This document shows positions 8,782-26,722 of a DNA stretch of 35,604 bases, one piece after another; position 1 is the stretch's first letter; every line of letters starts with the position of its first letter. The notes under the pieces are model-generated. The model was not told the origin of the DNA and did no database searches. It worked only from the letters and a program-made list of their open reading frames with translations. Position numbers and translations under genes: made by a program. Source of the stretch: Deltaproteobacteria bacterium PRO3 (GTDB lineage: Bacteria > UBA10199 > DSSB01); the NCBI GenBank assembly GCA_030263375.1, contig SZOV01000024.1, positions 1-35,604 of the forward strand, written 5' to 3'.

Positions 8782-11250
8782 ATGGCCAAGGTCGCTCCGA
8801 CTTGGTGTCGAATCTGTACACGTGTAACTGTTTTACTCTTCGTCCTATTGGGCATGGGGACCCTCGCCGGGGCCCTGCCGGAGGCCGCGGCCGCCACCCG
8901 CCAATGCTTCTGTCATAATTTCAACAACAATGCGGGCGAGATCTGCACCAGCAACCAAGCCATCATCGAGGGCCACGGCAATCACGTCGCGGACGGCGAC
9001 GACCTGCTGGGCAAATGCAACGGCTGCGGCAACGGCGTCCCCCAGGCAGGCGAGGAATGCGACGACGGCAACAACCAGGACGGCGACGGCTGCGACCAGA
9101 ATTGCCAGCTGGAATTTTGCGGCGACGGCGACGTCGATCCCTTTGAGGAGTGCGACGACGGGAATACGTCGAACAACGACGCCTGTCTCAACTCCTGCGC
9201 CGACGCCTCCTGCGGCGACGGCTTCGCCCAAACGGGCGTCGAAGAATGCGACGACGGAAATGCCGATCTCAGCGACGCCTGCCTGAACGACTGCACGGCA
9301 GCGGCCTGCGGCGACGGCATCCTTCGGGTTGGGGTCGAGGCCTGCGACGACGGGAACCAAGTGGACAATGACGGCTGCACCAACGGCTGCACCGTCGCCT
9401 CCTGCGGCGACGGCGTGGTCCAGGACGGAGCCGAGGAATGCGACGACGGCAACGCCGACAATACCGACGCCTGCCTCGATACCTGCATTTCGGCCGGCTG
9501 CGGCGACGGTTTTCTCCGCGCCGGCGTCGAGCAATGCGACGACGGTAACGCCGTCGAGACCGACGCCTGCCTTAATTCCTGCGTCCCGGCCTCCTGCGGC
9601 GACGGCGTGGTCCAGGCCGGCGTGGAAGCGTGCGACGATGGTAACACCTCCGACAACGACGCCTGCCTCAACGCCTGCCAATTCGCCGCCTGCGGCGACG
9701 GCATCGTCCAAACCGGCGTCGAGGCCTGCGACGACGGCAACGCCGACAACGGCGACGGCTGCCTGAACGATTGCTCCGCCGCGACCTGCGGCGACGGCGT
9801 CGTGCAGACCGGCGTCGAGCAATGTGACGACGGAAATACGGACGACGCCGACGACTGTCTCAACAACTGCCTGATCGCCTCCTGCGGGGACGGCGTCACC
9901 CAAGCCGGTGTCGAGGAATGCGACGACGGCAACGCCGACAATACGGACGACTGCCTCAACTCCTGCTTCGCGCCCTTCTGCGGCGACGGCTTCGTCCATA
10001 CGGGAGTGGAAACCTGCGACGACGGCAATCTGGACAATGGCGACGCATGCCTGACGGGTTGCGTGCCCGCCTCCTGCGGGGACGGCTTCGTCCAAACCGG
10101 CGTCGAGGCCTGTGACGACGGCAACCGTAACGAAGCGGACGCCTGTCTTAACAGCTGCGTCCCGGCCTCCTGCGGCGACGGCGTCGTTCAGACCGGCGTC
10201 GAGCAATGCGACGAGGGAGCCGCCAACAGCGACGCCCTTCCCGACGCCTGCCGCAGCAACTGCCTCAACCCCGGCTGCGGCGACGGTGTCACCGATGCCG
10301 GAGAGGCCTGCGACGATGGTAACCCGGACAACGGGGATGCATGCCTGAATTCCTGTCTGAACAACGTCTGCGGCGACGGCTTCGTCAACGTCGGTGTCGA
10401 GCAATGCGACGACGCCAACGCGGTGGATTCCGACGCCTGCCTCTCCACCTGCCGGGACGCGCGCTGCGGCGATGGCGTCCTGCACCAGGGCGTCGAGGCC
10501 TGCGACGACGCCAACGCGGACAACGCCGACGCCTGCCTGGACACTTGCGTCTCGGCCACTTGCGGCGACGGCACGGTCCAAGCCGGCGTCGAGGAATGCG
10601 ACGAGGGGCAAGCCAACAGCGACCTGACGCCCGACGCCTGCCGCGGCAATTGTCTCAGCGCCCGCTGCGGCGATGGCGTGAGCGATTCGGGCGAGGCCTG
10701 CGACGACGGCAACCAGGACAACGCCGACATCTGCCTCAACGCCTGCCTTCCGGCGACCTGCGGCGACGGCTTCGTCGAGGCCGGCGCCGAGGCCTGCGAC
10801 GACGGCAACCGAAATGACGCCGACGGCTGCACCAACGCCTGCAACCTCGCGCGCTGCGGCGACGGCATCGTTCAGGCCGGCGTCGAGCTCTGCGACGACG
10901 GCAACCAAAACGACGCCGACACCTGCGACAACGCCTGCGTCCCGACCTCCTGCGGCGACGGCGCGGTGCAGGCGGGCGAGCAATGCGACGGCGACGAGGC
11001 CCAGGCCTGCAACGGCTTGGGCTGCGCCCCGGACTGCCGCTGCGTAAACGCCGCCGAACCCCAAGAAGGCCCGACGCCGCCGGCGCCGGCCCCCTCCGGC
11101 CCGACCACCACCTTCCTGGAGGGCAGCGGTCCTCTCTCCTGCGCCTTGCGGGCGGGCGATGCATCGGCCCCCGCGACGGCCGGAAGCTGGCTCCTGATCC
11201 TAGCGGGATTGGCCTTAGGCGCGGTCCTGCGGCGCGGAGCCGCGCGATAG
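8782..11250 (+). CDS. Secreted DUF4215 cysteine-rich repeat protein with C-terminal sorting tail
   Basis: An 822-residue exported protein of unknown role. A signal peptide (hydrophobic core [15 protein letters not shown], cleavage near the AAAA at 35-38) is followed by a short cysteine-containing segment and then 21 tandem units from residue 82 to about 754. Each unit is about 32 residues of the form CGDGxxQxGVExCDDGNxxxxDxCLxxC, the Myxococcus cysteine-rich repeat. Each unit carries four cysteines and an acidic turn, so a rigid, disulfide-linked and possibly Ca2+-binding rod is likely. A Pro-rich linker ([10 protein letters not shown]) leads to a tail with SCAL, one hydrophobic helix ([15 protein letters not shown]) and RRGAAR. 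This tail architecture resembles MYXO-CTERM or related sorting signals, in which a Cys precedes a helix and Arg cluster. The ATG has AAGGAAGG 6 nt upstream. The gene runs opposite to ffh and rpsP on either side. Confidence 0.9.
9025..11043 (+). repeat. Tandem coding repeat, about 21 units of about 96 bp
   Basis: Each unit begins TGCGG(C/A)GACGG and encodes one DUF4215 repeat. Most are 93-96 bp, and two long units of about 104 bp encode CDEGxANSDxxPDAC. Units differ at many silent positions, so the array is not freshly amplified. A long-plus-short pair at 10171-10368 recurs at 10561-10758, both exactly 198 bp, showing a past higher-order duplication. Confidence 0.9.
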
Positions 11251-22555: not shown

Positions 22556-22593
22556 CGAAGTTTTTCCTTGGCGCGGCGGAAACCCATAAGGTG

Positions 22594-22777
22594 CGGCCCG
22601 GGACAGGAAAGAAGGTATCCCTTCCGGGCCCTGCGGAACTCGCATCTATTAGAATTGCCGTCTACCCCTCCGTGATCGTCCCAACTATTTCCTTATCCAC
22701 CAATTTTCCTCCCAATTAAGGTTGGCTCAGACAGTCCTCGGTCCCTCCAGGGATACCTTCTTTCCAGCACCGGGCCG
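22594..22777 (+). repeat. Family B element, copy B1 (184 bp)
   Basis: Ends are 29-bp inverted repeats, 22594-22622 and 22749-22777, with three mismatches. Both ends carry the copy-specific variants CGGCCCGG and GGAAAGAAGGTATCCC. Inside are a conserved left box (TTCCG-GGCCCTG-CGGAA hairpin then CTCGCAT), a 75-nt core, and a conserved right box (GGTTGGCTCAGACAG then TCCTCGGTCCCTCCAGGGA). Confidence 0.85.
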
Positions 22778-22837
22778 ATCTATTTGTAGTCATGATTTTT
22801 TCTCACGGGGTGGCTTAGAAAAAAAATACAAATAATT

Positions 22838-23023
22838 CGCCCCGGTGCAGGGGAAAAGGTGTCCCTGGAGGGACCGAGGACCTGTCTGAGCCATCCGTAA
22901 AGACTAGAAAGCGCATTTAAGTGATTCGACGCCTGGGATCACCCAAAAGGACGCGGTGGCAATTCCAATGGATGCGAGTTCCGCAGGGCCCGGAAGGGAC
23001 ACCTTTTCCCCTTCTCCGGGGCG
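22838..23023 (-). repeat. Family B element, copy B2 (186 bp), reverse orientation
   Basis: Read on the - strand it has the same order of boxes as B1 and B3. Its 29-bp ends differ at two positions and both carry GGGGAAAAGGTGTCCC. Its core of 76 nt is unlike those of B1 and B3 after the first 15 or so bases. The right box has one extra G (CAGACAGGTCC). Confidence 0.85.
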
Positions 23024-23086
23024 CACCTCCTAGTGAGGGCGGCAAGAAATCCCCCCTCCTCCGCCCCGCACGAAAAGGAGCGACGG

Positions 23087-25213
23087 TCAACCGCGCTGCA
23101 GCCCCACGCGGGCGATCGGCTGGATGCGCAGATTCTCGGAGAGCTCCTGATAGGAAAGAACGGAAAGCTGCGGAAACTCCAGCTCGATGATCTTGCGGAA
23201 GTAGCGCCGGATCTCCGCGGTGGTCAGGATCACCGGCGGCCGCGCGCCCGGCGGGAAGGGATGCGAGGCGATCTCCTTGCCAACGGCCTCGACGATCTCC
23301 TGCGTCGTCTCCGGCTCGAGGGCCAGGTAGTTGCCCTTCTCGGTGGTGCGGATGGCGTTGCGGACCATGTCTTCGATCTCGGGATCCAGCAAGTAGACCG
23401 CCATCGTGTTGGAATGCCCGGCGTACTTGTGCGTGATGTAGCGCTTCAAGCCCGCGCGGATGTGCTCGGTGAGCATCAGCGTGTTGCGCTCGACCTCCGC
23501 CCACTGCGCCAGGGTCGAGAAGATCGTTTTCAGGTCGCGGATCGCGATCTCTTCCTGGATCAGGCGCTGGAAGATCTCGGAGAGCTGCAAGACGGTGATG
23601 ACTTTGGGGACCAACTCTTTCACGAGCGCCGGGTGGCTCTTCTCGAGCTCGTTCAGGATGTTCTGGATCTCCTGCAAGCCCAAGAATTCGTGGGCGTGCT
23701 TGCGCAGGATATAGGAGAGGTGAAGGATCAGGTACTCCGCGATGTCCCACATCCGGAAACCCGCCTGCACCGCCACGTCCTTGAACTCCTCGTTGATCCA
23801 CGTCACGATCGACCCGTCGATCGGATGGATGGTCTCGGTGCCCTCGATGTTGAAGAGCGAGAGCTGCTCGAGCGGCTCGCCCACCAAAATGCAGCCGCGA
23901 TAGACGCGGCCCTTCGCCACCGGCACCTCGTTGATGTTGATGACGTAGCTCTCCGGCTCCATGTCGACGTTCTGCCCGCGGACCTGGATGCCCGGGAAGT
24001 TGACGCCCAGTTCGTAATACAGGCCGTGGCGCAGCAGCGGGATCAGTTCGTTGATGAAGCGCCCGCCGTCCTGGCTGTCGTCGACGAAGGGGATGATCGC
24101 CTCGCCCACCTCCAGCGAGATCGGCGCCGGCATGATGAAGGGCAGGACGTCGCCGTGCTTCTCGACCGCGCGCTTGACGACCTCTTCCTTGGGGACGTCC
24201 GCGATCTCCTGCGCCTCCTCGGTCTTGCCGCGCTTCAAGTAGTAGGCGGTGGCGCCGAGAGCCGCGGAGAGAATGAGGAAGGGAATCTTCGGCAGGCCGG
24301 GAACCAGGGCCAAAACCAGCAGCAGTCCCGAGACGATCAGGATGGCCTTGGGATAGGCGGTGACCTGGCCGACGATTTCCCGGCCCAAGTTCGATTCTTT
24401 GTTTTCGGAGGCGACGCGGGTGACGACCACGCCGGCCGCGATCGAGATGACCAGGGCCGGGATCATCGAGACGAGGCCGTCGCCGATCGACAGTAATGAG
24501 TAGGTCGTGATCGCGCGCCCCATCTCCATATCGCGGATCATGACGCCGATGATGAAACCGCCGATCAAGTTAATCAGCGTGATGATGATGCCCGCAATGG
24601 CGTCGCCCTTGACGAATTTCATCGCGCCGTCCATCGCGCCGTACATCTGGGATTCGCGCTGCAGGATCTCGCGGCGCTCCATGGCCTGCTCCATGTTGAT
24701 GATGCCGGCCCTGAGGTCGGCGTCGATCGACATCTGCTTTCCGGGCATGGCGTCCAGGGTGAAGCGCGCGCCGACTTCCGAGACGCGCTCGGCGCCCTTG
24801 GCGATGACGATGAAATTGACCAAGGTGATGATGAGGAAGATGACCATACCGACGACCATCGACTTCATCGAGGTACCGCCCAAGACGAAGGAACCGAAGG
24901 CCTCGATGACCTCGCCCGCATGGCCTTGCGAGAGGATCAGGCGCGTGGAGGAAATGTTCAGGGCGAGCCGAAAGATCGTGGTGATCAGGAGCAGGGTCGG
25001 GAAAGACGCGATCTTGAGGGCGTCGGAAATATACAGCGCGACTAAGAGGATCAGGATCCCGATGGTGATGTTGACCGTGAGCAAAATATCGATAAGCCAG
25101 GTCGGCAGCGGAATAATAATCATTCCGATGACTGCCACGACCAGAAGGGCCAGGACGACGTCGCTGTATTTTGCGATGATTTCGTTGAAATTGCCGAGCT
25201 TTAATTTTCCCAC
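23087..25213 (-). CDS. sctV: Type III secretion export apparatus protein SctV (FlhA/FHIPEP family)
   Basis: A 708-residue inner-membrane export-gate protein. The N-terminal half (about residues 15-330) has around eight membrane helices and the family core FRLALNISSTRLIL, then GARFTLDAMPGKQMSIDADL. The C-terminal half is the cytoplasmic nonamer-ring domain. I prefer SctV over flagellar FlhA because of QRESQMYGAMDGAMKFVKGD and, near the end, LTEHIRAGLKRYITHKYAG with VYLLDPEIEDMVRNAIRTTE, a pattern I know from injectisome proteins. The start is GTG with GAGG about 8 nt upstream. No other secretion or flagellar gene is in the window; neighbours are argJ and nfi. Either the apparatus genes are scattered or this is an orphan. 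A FlhA assignment cannot be fully excluded. Confidence 0.85.
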   Translation of the reverse strand: MGKLKLGNFNEIIAKYSDVVLALLVVAVIGMIIIPLPTWLIDILLTVNITIGILILLVALYISDALKIASFPTLLLITTIFRLALNISSTRLILSQGHAGEVIEAFGSFVLGGTSMKSMVVGMVIFLIITLVNFIVIAKGAERVSEVGARFTLDAMPGKQMSIDADLRAGIINMEQAMERREILQRESQMYGAMDGAMKFVKGDAIAGIIITLINLIGGFIIGVMIRDMEMGRAITTYSLLSIGDGLVSMIPALVISIAAGVVVTRVASENKESNLGREIVGQVTAYPKAILIVSGLLLVLALVPGLPKIPFLILSAALGATAYYLKRGKTEEAQEIADVPKEEVVKRAVEKHGDVLPFIMPAPISLEVGEAIIPFVDDSQDGGRFINELIPLLRHGLYYELGVNFPGIQVRGQNVDMEPESYVININEVPVAKGRVYRGCILVGEPLEQLSLFNIEGTETIHPIDGSIVTWINEEFKDVAVQAGFRMWDIAEYLILHLSYILRKHAHEFLGLQEIQNILNELEKSHPALVKELVPKVITVLQLSEIFQRLIQEEIAIRDLKTIFSTLAQWAEVERNTLMLTEHIRAGLKRYITHKYAGHSNTMAVYLLDPEIEDMVRNAIRTTEKGNYLALEPETTQEIVEAVGKEIASHPFPPGARPPVILTTAEIRRYFRKIIELEFPQLSVLSYQELSENLRIQPIARVGLQRG

Positions 25214-25255
25214 GTCAAGGACCTCTGTTTCGTCGAGGATCCCCGGGATCCCCGC

Positions 25256-26458
25256 TTAAGTACGGTATTCGGCGTTTATTTTGACATAGCCGTAGCCGAG
25301 ATCACTAGTCCAAACTTTGGCCTCTCCCCGCCCCCCGTTCAGCTCGACCAAGACCCGAAAAGACTTGCTTTTCATGATCTTATGGGCCCGGGCCTCGTTG
25401 GCGACGGGGGTGGGCAGGCCGCGGCGGACCAGGGGCACCGGGCCGTAGAAAATATCGACGCGGGATGGGTCGAAGGTTTCGCCCGAATACCCGACCGCCG
25501 CGAAAACCCGGCCCCAGTTGGGGTCCTGTCCGAAGAAGGAGGTCTTCACCAGAGGCGAGCGGGCGATGCTGTAGGCGATCTTTTTCGCGGAGCGGGCGGT
25601 CTTGGCGCCTCGCACCTGCACCTCGACAACCTTGGTGGCGCCCTCCCCGTCTTGGACCATCATCCAGGCGAGGTATTGGCAGACCTCGCGCAGGGCCTTC
25701 TCGAAGGCGCGCCAGGGGGCGCTACCGGGTTTGAGGGTCGGGATACCCGAGGCGCCGCTCGCCAGCAGGACGGCGGTGTCGTTGGTCGAGGTGTCGCCGT
25801 CCACCGAGATCGCGTTGAAGGTGTCTTCCACGGCCGCGCGGAAGGTCTTGCGCATCGCCCCGGCCGGCAGGTCGAGGTCGGTGAAGACGTAAGCCAGCAT
25901 GGTCGCCATGTGGGGCTCGATCATCCCGGCACCCTTGCCGAAGCCGGCAACGGTGAAGGGCCTGCCGCCGATCTTGCTGCGGACGACGTGCCACTTGGGA
26001 AAGGCGTCGGTGGTCATGATGGCACGGGCGGCGGCGGTGAAATTGTCGACCGAAAGACCCTGGACCGCCGCGGGCAGGGCCCGGCGGATCTTACCGACGT
26101 CTAACTGAATTCCGATCTTGCCGGTGGAGCTCACCAAGACCTCGTTTTTGGAAATCTTGAGGGCCTTGGCCGCTGCCGCGGCGGTGGCGAAGGCGTTTTT
26201 CAGGCCCTTGGGACCGGTGGCGGCGTTGGCGTTGCCCGAGTTGACGACGATGGCCCGCAGCTTGCCGCCTCGGATCGCCTTCTGTCCCTGTAAGACGGGG
26301 GCGGCCTTGAGTCGGTTGGTGGTGAAGACGGCGGTCGCCTTGGCGGGACGATCGGCGACGATCAGGGCCAGGTCGGGTTTCTTGGCCTGCTTGATGCCGG
26401 CAATGACGCCGGAGAATCTAAAACCGGGAATAGTGATGCTAGCGGAGTTTTTTTTCAT
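25256..26458 (-). CDS. argJ: Bifunctional ornithine acetyltransferase / N-acetylglutamate synthase ArgJ
   Basis: Moves the acetyl group from N-acetylornithine to glutamate, recycling it in arginine synthesis. The 400-residue precursor normally self-cleaves before a conserved threonine, here Thr186 in KGAGMIEPHMATMLAYV. Other conserved parts are VVNSGNANAATG, SSTGKIGIQLD, TTDAFPK and GQDPNWGRVFAAVGYSG. The start ATG at 26458 is 7 bp from the edge of repeat B3, which fills most of the gap to secA. Any promoter or leader of argJ must lie within or across that element. Whether the enzyme is bifunctional or only a transferase cannot be told from sequence alone. Confidence 0.96.
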   Translation of the reverse strand: MKKNSASITIPGFRFSGVIAGIKQAKKPDLALIVADRPAKATAVFTTNRLKAAPVLQGQKAIRGGKLRAIVVNSGNANAATGPKGLKNAFATAAAAAKALKISKNEVLVSSTGKIGIQLDVGKIRRALPAAVQGLSVDNFTAAARAIMTTDAFPKWHVVRSKIGGRPFTVAGFGKGAGMIEPHMATMLAYVFTDLDLPAGAMRKTFRAAVEDTFNAISVDGDTSTNDTAVLLASGASGIPTLKPGSAPWRAFEKALREVCQYLAWMMVQDGEGATKVVEVQVRGAKTARSAKKIAYSIARSPLVKTSFFGQDPNWGRVFAAVGYSGETFDPSRVDIFYGPVPLVRRGLPTPVANEARAHKIMKSKSFRVLVELNGGRGEAKVWTSDLGYGYVKINAEYRT

Positions 26459-26464
26459 AGGGAG

Positions 26465-26648
26465 CGCCCCGAAGCCGGAGAAAAGGTGTCCCTTCCGGGC
26501 CCTGCGGAACTCGCATTCAATTATAATTGACGTTTCAACCCATCAAAAAAGCAAACATAACCGATACTGCAATATCTTTCTCGACCTTAAGGTTGGCTCA
26601 GACAGTCCTCGGTCCCTCCAGGGACACCTTTTCTCCGGCCTCGGGGCG
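26465..26648 (+). repeat. Family B element, copy B3 (184 bp)
   Basis: Lies in the 264-bp secA-argJ gap, where no gene is seen. The ends, 26465-26493 and 26620-26648, are 29-bp inverted repeats with one mismatch, both carrying GCCGGAGAAAAGGTGTCCC. The left box, a 75-nt core that is AT-rich here, and the right box follow the same plan and spacing as B1. The right flank ATCTATT is shared with B1. No target-site duplication is evident. Confidence 0.85.
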
Positions 26649-26722
26649 ATCTATTAGAAGGATTATATACCCACGTCCTAGATCCTTGGGAAATCGAACG
26701 GACCCCCAATACCAAATTCTGC

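Follow-up and report, generated by a model that had tools for sequence, protein, structure and literature searches.

Palindromic repeats with a conserved hairpin tip, probably MITE-like, in a deltaproteobacterial genome and across bacterial phyla

B1, B2 and B3, three repeats in a 35,604-nucleotide stretch of DNA from Deltaproteobacteria bacterium PRO3 (contig SZOV01000024.1, positions 1 to 35,604, referred to here at its full length as the window), are likely resident copies of a non-autonomous, palindromic mobile element resembling a miniature inverted-repeat transposable element (MITE). The initial annotation had proposed two readings, a structured RNA or a MITE, and had made no choice between them; of the two, the MITE gained direct evidence in relatives and the RNA nothing decisive. 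This evidence consists of 8-bp target duplications in two genomes (G086 and G067), empty sites, and ends shared with an IS4-family insertion sequence in G086, and from it we infer the mobility of the window's own copies. The elements are mobile in relatives and probably old and resident in the window.

Copies of the element in the window

The three copies lie where they had originally been placed. With the strand taken as the one reading GGACTGT...GAGTTCCGCAG, B1 lies at 22594–22777 (minus strand, 184 nt), B2 at 22838–23023 (plus strand, 186 nt, inverted with respect to B1) and B3 at 26465–26648 (minus strand, 184 nt), the last ending 7 bp ahead of the start codon of argJ. The left arm of B1 (22594–22631, 38 nt) is 82% complementary to its right arm (22740–22777), while the corresponding values are 84% for B2 (22838–22875 and 22986–23023) and 85% for B3 (26465–26502 and 26611–26648). 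Followed end to end, the inverted repeats span 38–41 nt and are 82–85% complementary within each copy; terminal inverted repeats are therefore present, and the outer limits of the elements are not sharp in the window's genome. The tips occupy 22632–22739 in B1 (minus strand), 22876–22985 in B2 (plus strand) and 26503–26610 in B3 (minus strand), and all three carry the same conserved boxes, GAGGACTGTCTGA and GAGTTCCGCA, separated by variable sequence; B2 has the GAGGACCTGTCTGA variant. B1 and B2 form a head-to-head pair (22589–23028) whose outer 71 nt are 86% complementary. As single strands, the three copies folded better than 200 of 200 shuffled sequences (z from −5.0 to −8.6).

The surrounding genes, which include those for endonuclease V and FlhA/FHIPEP as well as argJ and secA, are ordinary chromosomal genes that all point leftward. 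A TCTAATAGA or TATAAT-like motif is found a few nucleotides before the stem on the GGACTGT strand in most copies from the window's genus and in one G027 copy, with examples in the window just outside the arms (22779–22790 and 26650–26661); it may represent either a −10 box or a piece of the terminal repeat. Elsewhere in the window, an 822-aa open frame (8782–11250, plus strand) is made up mostly of 96-bp tandem units matching DUF4215 (PF13948), about 19 of them, at 9051–11017.

Architecture of the hairpin

Each copy is a long hairpin in which variable yet complementary arms flank a conserved, asymmetric tip with the consensus GA-GGAC-TGTYT-GA[helix]GA-GTTCC-GCA. Along the GGACTGT strand, which is the minus strand in B1 and B3, the variable outer arm is followed by a short loop and a helix of about 4–6 bp, after which GA stands opposite GCA and GGAC opposite GTTCC; next come the bulge TGTYT, GA opposite GA, and an apical helix whose connecting stretch ranges from 7 nt to about 100 nt. 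The initial annotation had reported additional boxes, TTCCG/CGGAA and GTCCCTCCAGGGAC, as a hairpin and a palindrome suggestive of several arms. The letters are present, but the boxes are two sides of one long stem rather than separate hairpins: across relatives, GGGACC pairs with the opposite box and changes jointly with it (for example GGTTTC/GAAACC), and GGAC pairs with GTTCC.

The tip is nearly identical across phyla, while the stem arms differ by family and keep their complementarity. Of 50 apical triloops, 40 followed GNA and none TNC; loops of the C(GNA)G type are unusually stable in DNA. The layout GGAC-TGTYT-GA-helix-GA-GTTCC, in which a bulge precedes tandem G-A on either strand and a helix closes the motif, resembles that of kink-turn-like motifs, from which the element differs in having a bulge of 5 nt in most copies rather than 3.

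Several variant forms were observed. In a second subfamily from the window's own genome (L064, L071, L074 and L057), the GA/GCA loop is replaced by a straight helix (GGCTTTTCC/GGAAAAGCC), with TGTCTGA and CGAGTTT retained. A half element on contig 63 of the same genome (L009, 1471–1575) has one arm and one box left, and the same-genus genome G002 has no element at all at this site. Three G086 copies (L409, L410 and L411) carry an insert of about 90 nt at the TGTYT bulge of the tip; all three have what looks to be the same insert between arms that differ.

Distribution across bacteria

A DNA search found more copies on other contigs of the window's own genome, making B1–B3 members of one dispersed family. 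With a covariance model based on 19 class copies, the count in that genome came to at least 14 places, three of them in the window. The initial annotation had made its proposal depend on further copies in related genomes, and these proved to be many: the same-genus genome G002 has orthologous and other copies, and a class-mate (G014) has 38.

In a species-level genome collection, the tip pattern GGACTGTYTGA-N8-38-GAGTTYCGCAG, derived from these copies, matched at least 120 stretches, with about four expected by chance according to our estimate. Among the matches listed, the carriers are labelled as at least 13 bacterial phyla and include Beta- and Gammaproteobacteria, Campylobacteraceae, Desulfobulbaceae, Myxococcota, Spirochaetes, Chloroflexi, Coriobacteriia, Lachnospiraceae, Bacteroidales, Omnitrophota, Endomicrobium, Gastranaerophilales and several Patescibacteria groups, although many are metagenome bins whose individual taxon labels may be wrong. 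Named carrier strains are Dechloromonas hankyongensis, Chitiniphilus shinanonensis, Litorivivens lipolytica, Niveibacterium sp. 24ML and Sulfuricella sp. T08. About 30 carrier genomes have between 1 and 75 copies each; 35 copies occur in one 0.8-Mb Patescibacteria assembly, and copy-rich carriers include G071 (35), G066 (20), G075 (15) and the Chitiniphilus isolate (15). The reversed tip pattern had no match in 29 carrier genomes.

Rfam 15 gave no match at the gathering score, and lax searches of it returned nothing credible. The longer tip sequences were absent from the full texts searched in the open literature, where the matches listed for short tip sequences look like chance primers. A repeat family this widespread is thus absent from both Rfam 15 and the open literature searched. 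A Dechloromonas pair used as query had no match in plasmid and phage collections, nor did a 75-nt composite of the tip in E. coli genomes, and viral contigs contained three matches to the tip pattern, one of which is a chance match inside a simple repeat.

Evidence for mobility

At several orthologous places in one or other of two sister-species genomes (G001 and G004), the flanking genes are kept around a short, hairpin-free spacer and the whole element is absent, indicating that the arms and the tip come or go as one unit. The idea that the core had jumped into pre-existing terminator arms was rejected, since the empty sites have no hairpin. The copies lie between genes arranged as convergent, divergent and co-directional pairs, in both orientations, with no clear orientation preference relative to the neighbouring genes and no orientation bias with GC skew. 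Host-maintained cis-acting hairpins such as transcription terminators would also be intergenic and fold very stably, but the variety of these gene arrangements, the orthologous gene pairs that do without the element in a sister species, and a conserved asymmetric tip that a terminator does not need make this explanation highly improbable.

Target duplications were seen in two relatives with recently expanded families. In the first, an uncultured eubacterium with 38 copies (G086), the alignment of the elements ends at GTTACTGTTCAYG...CRTGAACAGTAAC; identical 8-bp flanks were present in 7 of the 24 elements with both ends recognised, and 16 of the 24 had at least six of eight positions matching, while a control with swapped flanks gave a mean of 2.07 matches and none at 7 or more. 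In the second, a member of the Myxococcota with 75 copies (G067), identical 8-mers flank both ends of the element in three clear cases (CTATCTAG, CTAAATAG and CAAGCTAG). No target duplication beyond the chance or control rate was detected for copies of the window's genome or G014, which may simply be old.

The G086 termini (GTTACTGTTCAYG) also delimit other forms, some shorter and lacking the tip, others longer by about 90 nt. In this genome, contig breaks fall within a larger sequence that has the termini of the elements, and one contig starting inside it encodes an IS4-family transposase, of which only the C-terminal part is assembled. As read from these contigs, the terminal repeat in G086 is common to the element and an IS4-family insertion sequence. 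A 2.5-kb unit between two G086 termini was rejected as the autonomous element; it holds an unrelated 691-aa gene. The duplications and the shared ends point to transposition as DNA, with a DDE enzyme acting in trans.

Under the MITE reading, a transposase supplied in trans by an insertion sequence would move the elements and duplicate 8 bp of the target; this step has left traces in the two recently expanded relatives, with the IS4 family implicated in one, and we infer it for the window. After insertion, the arms would drift yet stay complementary, giving rise to families and copies with different stems and paired changes. The main force acting on the arms is probably arm-to-arm copying within the palindrome, whether by conversion or by template switching, combined with selection for the ability to fold, and the tip would probably be kept since some factor binds or needs the folded strand.

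As MITEs are, the elements are short, non-coding, intergenic and present in many copies with terminal inverted repeats, and in G086 they share with MITEs the 8-bp target duplications and termini in common with an insertion sequence. MITEs are normally defined, and recognised, by conserved ends, whereas here the ends vary by lineage, the centre is conserved from Betaproteobacteria to Patescibacteria, and the arms change together in resident copies. We counted this conserved middle with differing ends against the MITE reading, together with the absence of target duplications beyond chance in the window's genome and G014; nor was a transposase with matching ends identified in the window's genome. 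The conservation of the tip and the covariation across phyla are not explained by DDE transposition alone.

Paired changes and the RNA alternative

The two ends of one copy had been described as carrying that copy's own variants, and this was borne out by the 19 class copies, in which 22 of 28 stem pairs had changed on both sides, with 122 such cells compared with 32 in shuffles. Two-sided changes affected 18 of the 19 pairs of the outer helix, and sliding the partner by one column destroyed the signal. When one copy was taken from each of 99 genomes, the pairs adjoining GA/GCA and the first six apical pairs covaried well above shuffles. The excess covariation in the stem, on which the original proposal had been made to hinge, is therefore strong in both sets, but it does not prove an RNA, as a DNA palindrome gives the same signal: because the arms of a palindrome may be copied from each other, paired change cannot separate it from a selected RNA helix.

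A single folded strand should accept G-U pairs and reject A-C pairs on that strand, so we counted both, using only positions with two matched pairs on either side. This controlled count yielded 268 Watson–Crick, 2 G-U and 1 A-C pairs in the window's genus, G-U 39 versus A-C 23 with one copy per genome (p 0.056), G-U 20 versus A-C 6 in G067, and G-U 29 versus A-C 2 in G014, the last at only 6 and 2 distinct positions. The control removed most of the G-U excess of a first count (G-U 51 versus A-C 12), which we rejected as strong evidence for RNA, as it was inflated by wobble inherited in G014 and by misregistered positions. The strand bias in wobble pairs outside the window family is weak or inherited. 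In orthologous copies from the window's genome and its same-genus relative (G000 C53 and G002 C118), two stem pairs had changed on both sides and zero were broken. In their behaviour the stems are closer to DNA palindromes than to typical RNA helices, while the tip may function either as an RNA or as a hairpin of single-stranded DNA. For palindromic repeats in general, paired change can mimic RNA covariation, and the wobble-pair count by strand is a better witness.

The very strong covariation would nonetheless suit a structured non-coding RNA family transcribed from the GGACTGT strand, with a long stem, a kink-turn-like, protein-binding tip and paired changes selected in the RNA. In agreement with this, folding is usually more stable for the GGACTGT strand than for its complement, the TATAAT-like motif lies directly upstream of the stem in many copies from the window's genus, and G-U is commoner than A-C in G014 and G067. 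However, the window family has hardly any G-U pairs and the G014 bias comes from very few distinct positions; copies in either orientation are separated from genes by a few bases, too little in many cases to accommodate a promoter; Rfam has no match; and target duplications reveal movement as DNA in at least two families. We therefore regard an RNA family as unlikely, though conservation of the tip itself as a single strand of a fold leaves it some room.

More tentatively than the MITE reading itself, we propose as a possibility that the tip works as a functional module in its own right. Whether as folded RNA or as an extruded hairpin of single-stranded DNA, it would be read by a bacterial factor that is widely conserved, and otherwise unrelated MITEs in many phyla would carry it centrally because it aids their spread or tolerance. 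If so, it would be a structured element spanning phyla that has never been catalogued, and a tip with a job of this kind would be a shared bacterial signal missed by Rfam and the repeat surveys consulted. The family offers hundreds of natural variants for finding the factor that reads the tip.

Head-to-head pairs

Copies within about 300 bp of each other pointed away from each other in 16 of 16 independent pairs, counting orthologues once. Such close pairs were seen in proteobacteria, in one Parcubacteria genome and in the window's own genome, B1–B2 included, and inverted duplication is the only mechanism we can offer for them. REPs likewise favour head-to-head dimers (PMC3733652). This shared arrangement, the dispersed intergenic hairpins and the predominance of very stable GNA triloops over TNC would fit a REP-like (REP/REPIN) element, that is, folded single-stranded DNA whose mobility depends on a Y1 tyrosine transposase (RAYT) or on a different enzyme acting on single strands. 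REP/REPIN/BIME elements and the CGTC repeats of Di Nocera et al. are also dispersed intergenic palindromes, and the CGTC group, too, lacks a flanking transposase gene (PMC3733652). However, REP stems measure 5–13 bp and stand on a GTAG or CGTC foot (PMC3733652), whereas the stems of the element reach 20 bp or more, with no such foot on a short stem, a different and much larger conserved tip, and 8-bp target duplications, which point to a DDE enzyme. In addition, no Y1 domain was found in 7 of 28 carriers, including G071 (35 copies), G066 (20) and the Chitiniphilus isolate (15), a copy lay nearby at only 1 of 40 Y1 loci, and a bias with GC skew was absent, so that a REP-like origin appears improbable.

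A retro-element was also considered but gained no support: 7 of 18 carriers, among them G014 (38 copies), G071 (35) and G075 (15), yielded no match to the reverse transcriptase domain RVT_1. More widely spaced outward-pointing pairs, 0.9–1.25 kb apart, were observed in Gallionellales and relatives (L142, L145, L148 and L194), where they enclose one or two small, unrelated open frames, as if these were cargo.
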